DNA of 40,682 bases, from positions 1 through 40,682 of the forward strand of contig CAMZAW010000003.1 of NCBI GenBank assembly GCA_947304335.1, in the 5' to 3' direction. This document shows positions 37,712 to 39,707 of this stretch, in pieces (position 1 is the stretch's first letter; each line of letters begins with the position of its first letter). This DNA comes from an uncultured Candidatus Saccharibacteria bacterium. GTDB lineage: Bacteria; Patescibacteriota; Saccharimonadia; Saccharimonadales; Saccharimonadaceae. The notes under the pieces were generated by a model. That model ran no database searches, was not told the origin of the DNA, and saw only the letters and a list, made by a program, of their open reading frames with translations. Made by a program: the position numbers and the translations under genes.

Positions 37712-38977
37712 ATGAGTGATAAAACCCAAAACAAAGAAACCGAAAAACCCGTAGAAATCGAAAAAGTTGAAGGAACCAAAGCAGAAAAGCCTAAAAAGCA
37801 CCGCAACCTAGGCTACAAAATTGTTATTGTATTACTACTTCTCGCCATCGCTGCCGGCGCCGGCACCTGGGCATTCACCACCGGCAAACTCGACTTTATT
37901 TTTAACCCAACCCCAGCCGAAGAAGCAAAAGTTGAGCTAAAGCATACCGACACTATCACCGCTAAAACAGACGGCGTATATATTATTGACGTTTCTGAAG
38001 TCGTCGACGAGGTCATGCCATCCATCGTGGCCATCACCAGCAAAACCGTCATTAATTCCGGTCTGTTTGACTTCTTTTTCTTTGGCACCAACACTCCTAA
38101 AAGCTACACCACCGAAGGCGCCGGTTCTGGCGTTATCGTAGCCGAAGACGACGAAAATCTTTATATTCTTACCAACAACCACGTCGTCAAAAACGCTAGC
38201 GAACTCTCCGTAAAATTCATCGATGACACTAGCCACGATGCTTCCATCAAAGGCGTCTCAAAACGCAAAGACATCGCCATCGTATCAGTTAGTAAAAGCG
38301 GCATCGACAACGAAACCTTGAAAAAAATCAAAATCGCCACACTCGGCGACAGCAACAAGCTCAAAGTCGGTAACGGCGTTATCGCCATCGGCAACGCCCT
38401 CGGCTACGGCCAATCCGTCACCATCGGCGTAGTTAGCGCCTTGAACCGCGAAGTAGTCACCGAAGATTATACCCAAGAAATGATCCAAACTGACGCTGCC
38501 ATCAACGGCGGCAACAGTGGCGGCGCTTTGCTCAACAGTAAAGGCGAAGTCGTTGGTATCAACTCCGTTAAATATTCGCAAAACGGCACCATCACTAGCG
38601 CCAGCATCGAAGGCATGAGCTTTGCCATCCCAATCTCCGACGTCGCCGAGCTCATCACTTCCCTCATCAAAGGCGAAGACGACAAAGAGCTCTCCCTCGG
38701 CATCGAGGGTTATATGACCAATTCCAGCAGCCTCGCCGGCTATAAACTACCAGAAGGCCTCTATGTCTCCGCCATCACCGCTGGCGGCAACGCCGAAAAG
38801 TCCGAGCTCGAAATCGGCAACATCATCACCGAAATCGACGGTAACAAAGTCACTTCCCTCGACTCTGTCCGCAAAGTTCTCAACAAGAAGCAGCACGGCG
38901 ACACCGTCACCCTCAAAGTAAAATACGCCAGCAGAAACGAGTATAAAGAAAAAGAAATCACGATTACTCTGGCGTAA
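37712..38977 (+). CDS. degP: DegP/HtrA-type S1C serine protease with PDZ domain
   Basis: TM anchor; TNNHVVKNA, KDIAIVSV, TDAAINGGNSGGALLNSKGEVVGIN, C-terminal PDZ. Confidence 0.95.
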   Translation: MSDKTQNKETEKPVEIEKVEGTKAEKPKKHRNLGYKIVIVLLLLAIAAGAGTWAFTTGKLDFIFNPTPAEEAKVELKHTDTITAKTDGVYIIDVSEVVDEVMPSIVAITSKTVINSGLFDFFFFGTNTPKSYTTEGAGSGVIVAEDDENLYILTNNHVVKNASELSVKFIDDTSHDASIKGVSKRKDIAIVSVSKSGIDNETLKKIKIATLGDSNKLKVGNGVIAIGNALGYGQSVTIGVVSALNREVVTEDYTQEMIQTDAAINGGNSGGALLNSKGEVVGINSVKYSQNGTITSASIEGMSFAIPISDVAELITSLIKGEDDKELSLGIEGYMTNSSSLAGYKLPEGLYVSAITAGGNAEKSELEIGNIITEIDGNKVTSLDSVRKVLNKKQHGDTVTLKVKYASRNEYKEKEITITLA

Positions 38978-38999
38978 CAAGAATACACGCATTGGTTTG

Positions 39000-39181
39000 C
39001 GGCAAGGTTAGGTTGTTTTGAACTATTTCCAGATTTTCGAGCGTTAAAAAGACAACAATACCGAATGAGAAAAGCAAGAACCCTCCATGCGGAGGGTTCA
39101 ATTTTGCTTTTCGAATTTCGGTCTATTGTTGTCTTTTTAACTAAGCTCGAAAGTCCAGTTCAAAACAACCTAAGCTTACCG
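39000..39181. repeat. 182-bp imperfect palindrome (long hairpin) between convergent degP and ndk
   Basis: Arms AAGGTTAGGTTGTTTTGAACT / AGTTCAAAACAACCTAAGCTT, TTAAAAAGACAACAATA / TATTGTTGTCTTTTTAA, apex AACCCTCC-ATGC-GGAGGGTT. Confidence 0.92.
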
Positions 39182-39185
39182 TAAA

Positions 39186-39707
39186 TTAACGAGTATATTT
39201 TTCGTTAAGATCTGAGTAATCGTAAAGCTCGTTTGCATTGAACCAAAGGTCAATCTCAGCCTTGGCTTCTTCGAGAGAGCCAGAAGCGTGTACCAAGTTA
39301 GGAACACCAGTACCCTTGGCATCAGAGTAACCAAAGCTCATGTGTGAGAAGTCGCCACGAATGGTGCCCATCTCAGCGGATTTTGGTTCGGTTGGACCAA
39401 CGATCTTGCGAACGAGTGGTTGTGCCTCAACACCTTCAAGCACCATAGCTACCACAGGGCCAGTCATCATGTATTCAACGTTGTAGCGGAAAACTTGTTC
39501 GCCACGGCGAGTAATCATTTTACCAATGTCTTCGTAGTGCATGCGATAAAGTTTTTCATCTGGCATGACCATCTTCATACCAACGATCTTAAGACCAACG
39601 CGTTCGAAGCGTTGAATAATTTCGCCGATAATACCACGTTGCACTGTATCTGGTTTCAAAACCACAAGCGTACGCTGAATATAGTCTTTTGCTTTTGATT
39701 CTGCCAT
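39186..39707 (-). CDS. ndk: Nucleoside diphosphate kinase
   Basis: QRTLVVLKPDTVQRGIIGEIIQRFERVGLKIVGMK; NLVHASGS active-site His. Confidence 0.96.
   Translation of the reverse strand: MAESKAKDYIQRTLVVLKPDTVQRGIIGEIIQRFERVGLKIVGMKMVMPDEKLYRMHYEDIGKMITRRGEQVFRYNVEYMMTGPVVAMVLEGVEAQPLVRKIVGPTEPKSAEMGTIRGDFSHMSFGYSDAKGTGVPNLVHASGSLEEAKAEIDLWFNANELYDYSDLNEKYTR

Follow-up and report, generated by a model that had tools for sequence, protein, structure and literature searches.

The stretch of DNA analysed here (the window, 40,682 nucleotides) belongs to an uncultured Candidatus Saccharibacteria bacterium whose genome, G000, amounts to 608 kb in 46 contigs. Close to the end of the window lie two convergent genes, degP (37712-38977, plus strand) and ndk (39186-39707, minus strand, stop codon at 39186-39188), with a long imperfect palindrome between them. 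The palindrome is far beyond chance expectation: in RNAfold, positions 38980-39200 fold at -113.6 kcal/mol, against a mean of -43.5 (sd 4.28) for shuffled sequences (z = -16.4; 0 of 200 shuffles equal it). A repeat search gave two arm pairs, 38979-39024 with 39157-39202 (46 nt, 80%) and 39043-39060 with 39124-39141 (18 nt, 100%). The first-pass annotation had described a 182-bp imperfect palindrome at this place, which is confirmed, both arm pairs being recovered, and the true extent is longer, approximately 38960-39223, reaching into the 3' coding ends of degP and ndk. The outermost symmetry is weakened; 38960-38993 aligns locally to the reverse complement of ndk 39188-39223 with a score of 32 and a shuffle p of 0.0006, which is modest and, as a single case, is to be weighed jointly with the evidence from the remaining loci. 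Folding was surveyed over about 405 kb, made up of the window and stretches of genomes G149, G000, G072 and G077, and no other palindrome of the window passed the length and pairing cut-off.

The features of the palindrome are as follows, where A1 is an alignment of six terminator-type copies of the element and A2 an alignment of ten simpler copies.

38960..38993, minus strand: inverted copy of the 3' coding end of ndk, now decayed, aligning to ndk 39188-39223 (ACGATTACTCAGATCTTAACGAAAAATATACTCGTT) and covering the last degP codons and stop
38994..39024, no strand: left outer stem, copy-specific, pairing with 39157-39185
39025..39031, plus strand: asymmetric unpaired bulge ATTTCCA, which is CATTTACCA or TAATGAGATTTAGACCA in other members and stays unpaired in every aligned copy when folded
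39032..39060, plus strand: left strand of the head, GATTTTCGAGC-GTTAAAAAGACAACAATA, from the A1 and A2 alignments, with helices 97-100% paired
39061..39123, no strand: head centre, a predicted bidirectional intrinsic terminator with the core stem GAACCCTCC-atgc-GGAGGGTTC at 39078-39099
39124..39156, plus strand: right strand of the head, TATTGTTGTCTTTTTAAC-TAA-GCTCGAAAGTC-C, pairing with 39032-39060
39157..39185, no strand: right outer stem, copy-specific, abutting the ndk stop codon, from the repeat search and stem comparison
39186..39223, minus strand: ndk 3' coding end, the native side of the outer symmetry, whose ...NEKYTR* ending is kept in element-free relatives and whose inverted copy is 38960-38993

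We take the gene side as the native side because the coding ends are kept in relatives that lack the element.

The core at 39078-39099 is terminator-like on both strands, with a GC-rich stem followed by a T run (2 found, 0.3 expected). The same centre is present in the rarA, tsf (G149, G141) and glyS copies described below. From its sequence, the element probably ends both convergent transcripts, degP and ndk, and would for that reason be tolerated, and probably useful, at this locus.

Genome search and flank comparison revealed three copies in G000: the one in the window, one on contig C18 adjoining rarA and one on contig C7 after tsf. When the genus was searched with the raw sequence, copies turned up in G149 and G141, while G077 and G167 gave weaker ones; an exact 28-base consensus matched Saccharibacteria records only, among 84,980 species scanned. 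With a covariance model built from A2 (short calibration, E <= 0.001), matches were obtained in 66 of the 174 genomes of the genus, most of them in G021 (20) and in G069, G079 and G033 (8 each); some of these are the two strands of one copy, and the search filters lose weak copies. Within a 393-genome sample of the order, model matches are confined to one of 156 genera. Every genome used is a draft, assembled from a metagenome or in a similar way. The search for copies and empty sites in the same and related genomes, suggested by the first-pass annotation, thus turned up both, and the palindrome is not the single, unconserved copy that the annotation would have regarded as a curiosity of one locus.

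An immobile, locus-specific terminator whose arms grew by template switching, with the similar heads explained by common ancestry of a few terminators, is very improbable. It would agree with the plain terminator that occupies the same spacer in G141, and arm growth by fold-back is well supported, but a 22-nt unpaired motif is invariant at many unrelated loci, one genome has 20 model matches, and G069 and G073 hold several nearly identical copies. The earlier idea of a bidirectional terminator that has grown arms therefore stands as regards the head centre, and falls short as a locus-specific account of the whole, since the head is common to many loci and genomes.

A1 and A2 share one plan, namely a copy-specific outer stem, a stretch unpaired on the left strand only, a head stem, a variable stem and a loop. 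The unpaired stretch is invariantly TAATGAGATTTAGACCA in A2 and reads ATTTCCA in the window copy. In both alignments the head stem starts with GATTT/AAGTC, including an invariant T.G mismatch, and the head carries a conserved GTNAAAAA.ACA stretch together with a short stem (3-5 bp, its left side within 39032-39060) that changes on both sides from copy to copy and always keeps its pairing. The loop of A2-type copies is replaced in A1 by the bidirectional terminator. Small indels between the arms had been read as signs of ageing; they are not random, as the 7-nt bulge ATTTCCA and the T.G mismatch recur at equal positions in other members.

Covariation of paired positions amounts to 0.415 in A2 (0.137 when shuffled, at most 0.089 with slid partners) and 0.291 in A1 (0.109 and at most 0.063), with no shuffle of 500 as high in either case; kinship of the copies can inflate the shuffle comparison, to which the slide control is immune. 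Compensatory changes, which the first-pass annotation had proposed to look for, prevail: changed cells are two-sided rather than one-sided by 46 to 6 in A2 and 37 to 3 in A1. The outer stems of 48 copies have a median of 31 positions, and their 1687 paired positions comprise 1568 Watson-Crick pairs, 44 GU, 22 AC and 53 others; the GU and AC counts refer to the element strand, and several of them come from repeated copies within one genome.

Strong covariation, a real terminator at the head centre, the many copies at gene ends (judged from crude frames) and the mild excess of GU over AC would all suit a functional structured RNA or regulatory terminator, in which selection on the transcript (a long double-stranded hairpin, processed or protected) keeps the arms complementary and copies spread through their usefulness at gene ends. 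We regard this as unlikely. Almost every change affects both sides and GU intermediates are few, so that DNA copying fits better than RNA selection. Furthermore, the outer arms are copied from neighbouring coding sequence, sister palindromes lie in frame in essential reading frames, where a terminator or double-stranded RNA would do harm, and the element is present or absent between close relatives. An Rfam scan gave no family at gathering score, only weak matches to long-hairpin microRNA models far below it. Given the mild GU excess (44 against 22), a degree of RNA constraint is still conceivable.

We read forty copies from end to end and compared their stems with each other. In G021 the head is nearly constant and most stems differ. 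G069 and G073 hold near-identical copies with longer common stems that differ further out, and the two G077 copies (L011, L019) have the innermost approximately 10 bp of the stem in common and then differ; both patterns look like partial carry-over of old stems. By crude stop-to-stop frames, too rough for any claim on placement preference, the setting of the 40 copies is convergent in 13, co-directional in 16, divergent in nine, inside a frame in one and unresolved in one. At one locus (L245, identical to L161) the full copy is preceded directly upstream by a tandem repeat of its left arm and left half. Another long palindrome family was noticed at L142 (5461-5717) and L148 (10820-11047), near an apparent promoter with TATAAT just outside the right arm; its outer stems differ between G149 and G000.

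Several stems contain inverted copies of the neighbouring coding ends. In G000, the far arm of the rarA copy reproduces a 38-base stretch of the rarA coding end apart from a single difference (p = 0.0002), and G149 has a different palindrome at rarA, also with an inverted copy of the coding end (p = 0.0002). The tsf coding end is likewise copied in G149 (p = 0.0034), G141 (p = 0.0002) and G000 (p = 0.0004). At glyS no clear inverted coding-end copy was found (p = 0.6 in G141, 0.027 in G149). At the window locus, the translated end of degP is EITITLA* in G000, EIIVTLQ* in G149 and EIVITLQ* in G141, and ten bases, ACGATTACTC, are identical between the degP end region and the ndk end of G000. The altered EITITLA* end and these ten bases suggest that the degP tail of G000 was overwritten by sequence copied from ndk.

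Fold-back chimeras arising in library preparation or assembly are a further candidate explanation, and the G000 rarA copy does start at a contig end in a draft assembly. An artefact is hardly credible, given that the window copy lies 1.5 kb inside its contig, that orthologous copies with different arms occur in independently assembled genomes, that the arms have consistent bulges, and that the coding-end palindrome at rarA in G149 lies mid-contig. That independent G149 palindrome led us to drop the contig-end explanation for the rarA copy of G000.

Comparison of close relatives revealed both occupied and unoccupied sites. Between degP and ndk, the spacer of G141 measures 37 nt and holds a plain terminator, AAAAAAGAGTCCCGCGGGGCTCTTTTTTG, beside an ndk that is 98% identical, and in G149 the element is represented by its ndk-side half alone, which adjoins degP. 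Three ndk loci (L004-L006) considered as further unoccupied sites were dropped, their neighbours being genes other than degP. The tsf site carries palindromes with different stems in G000, G149 and G141 and a plain terminator in G139, G152 and G132. At rarA, the two different palindromes of G000 and G149 correspond in G141, G152 and G132 to an ABC-transporter gene that ends directly at the rarA stop. The aspS/tRNA-Arg site is likewise occupied in some relatives and unoccupied in others, and a further convergent site has quite different palindromes in G173 and G160 between flanks that are 98-99% identical. Different palindromes and stems between near-identical flanks mean that turnover is fast.

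Dispersed, non-coding, palindromic copies at sites that are occupied in one genome and unoccupied in another are also what a conventional MITE, mobilised by a recombinase of the DDE or tyrosine type, would leave, its terminal inverted repeats having diverged into the outer stems, and the near-identical copies with longer common arms in G069 and G073 agree with this. Such a MITE is nevertheless distinctly unlikely. Transposon ends must be common to the copies, and here the outer stems of most copies are unrelated between sites and match neighbouring genes; moreover, G141 and G000 differ at degP-ndk by a replaced spacer with no clear direct repeat or target-site duplication. Of the MITE-like non-autonomous element proposed in the first-pass annotation, the dispersed copies, the occupied and unoccupied sites and the genus-restricted spread hold good; fixed terminal repeats of about 21 bp are not supported, as the outer stems are copy-specific.

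Two matches of the first genus search have the bulge motif and the GAAAGTCC end in common with the other copies but lie inside open frames. A search with the encoded peptide found palindromes in frame or nearly so in 30 of 174 genomes. From their sequence, we take the hosts of the in-frame palindromes to be dnaX, obgE, valS, argS, tsaD and a P-type cation ATPase. This coding type is likely akin to the window type, because the motif, with 17 bases exact, occupies the same position in the structure and the right strand matches. The linker that joins the conserved domains of dnaX (L051-L080, from many members of the genus) contains different in-frame palindromes by species, belonging to at least three unrelated sequence families. 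In tsaD, the loop between LRE and FFPEP is short in most relatives and holds three different insertions in as many genomes (L172, L190, L191), a comparison that suggests, short of proof, which arm is native. Both obgE (L024) and argS (L029) seem to have a second, low-complexity in-frame insertion of another kind. The genus maximum, five in-frame or near coding-type palindromes, is found in G072. The coding-core palindrome had no exact match in viral contigs.

We think it probable, though well short of assured, that the palindrome between degP and ndk belongs to a family of mobile repeats of Saccharibacteria that are non-autonomous, form hairpins and are restricted to one genus, with arms made by fold-back and, here, a terminator. 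The family has a dispersed head, matched stems peculiar to each copy, inverted copies of coding ends and fast turnover. Its stems, we infer, are made by head-primed fold-back synthesis and kept up by template switching. In brief, where a head adjoins a gene, the nascent strand would snap back on the hairpin during replication, copy the adjacent DNA as an inverted repeat and then return to its template. Repeated template switching would overwrite one arm with the other, so that the arms change fast yet together. The bulge and the T.G mismatch are probably recognised by something, perhaps the machinery that moves the head, because both persist though arm correction should erase them.

A Y1 transposase (PF01797, the sole transposase family searched) was found in six of the 174 genomes of the genus and not in G000. 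A Y1/RAYT partner is accordingly not supported as mover of the head in most genomes, being absent from G000 and from 168 of the 174. Natural uptake of DNA is a conceivable route for head movement. As a variant, which we hold only tentatively and think unlikely, the insertion reaction itself could copy the target flank and so leave an inverted rather than a direct duplication, the invariant bulge being the site recognised. The nested structure of, for example, the two G077 copies would then come from old stems carried over in part. We know of no earlier description of a transposition that leaves an inverted target duplication.

Among known systems, REP/BIME elements with their RAYT are short palindromes at gene ends in many copies; they differ in that the Y1 transposase domain is absent from G000 and most of the genus. 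The attC site of integrons is a bulged single-strand hairpin used by its cognate integrase in a cassette array, and the bulged asymmetry seen here recalls it. MITEs, including ERIC, RUP and Correia, carry terminal repeats common to their copies, and target duplications, both linked to a transposon (PMC10969869). Like these, the present elements are non-autonomous, dispersed, palindromic and mostly intergenic and can act on transcripts, but their ends are unrelated between copies, longer common stems being limited to G069 and G073. Template switching at quasipalindromes, an established mutation mechanism in E. coli and yeast, involves the same proposed matching and extension of arms; it is described for short imperfect repeats (PMC7202029, PMC3820800, PMC8604942), whereas here it would apparently act over 30-65 bp at many loci around a mobile head. 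A search of the open-access literature, itself incomplete, gave no report of palindromic elements in Saccharibacteria or Patescibacteria.

Rickettsia is the best-known case of selfish palindromes lying within protein-coding genes, and their movement is unsolved; to our knowledge, inverted copies of neighbouring coding ends are no part of the description of these Rickettsia palindromic elements (RPE). RPE are dispersed palindromic families of approximately 100-150 bp, many of them in frame in housekeeping genes (Ogata et al. 2000, 2002, in PMC10969869), and the passage on them in PMC6649704 describes a loss of arm identity over time. The present family resembles them as a dispersed palindromic repeat of about 100-150 bp with many copies per genus and no known moving enzyme; in-frame insertion with a conserved peptide applies to the coding type only, whose behaviour is a close fit to RPE, the window copy being intergenic. 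It differs in belonging to another phylum, in the terminator centre of the window copy and in arms that are copy-specific and kept matched. RPE-type NCBIfam models gave no match to four coding-type peptides, a comparison at the peptide level with a library whose RPE content is unconfirmed. In mitochondria of Nematomorpha, genes contain long and nearly perfect inverted repeats that come and go between species and whose arm identity is actively maintained, and template switching has been proposed for these as well (PMC6649704). The description of those palindromes, which are animal and mitochondrial, mentions neither a common conserved head nor a single family dispersed in copies.

In behaviour, the family thus appears closest to RPE, and in arm upkeep closest to the nematomorph palindromes. 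We do not file it as either type, because the window copy is non-coding, no homology was found in the peptide comparison, and the stems are maintained and copy-specific. Several palindrome families, placed both at the ends of genes and in frame within essential ones, occur here in a second bacterial lineage, which is unrelated to Rickettsia and has a tiny genome. Its palindromes turn over between near-identical genomes, and the inverted coding-end copies and two-sided arm changes point to fold-back DNA synthesis. Since many occupied and unoccupied sites can be aligned, the origin and upkeep of such elements become directly testable.
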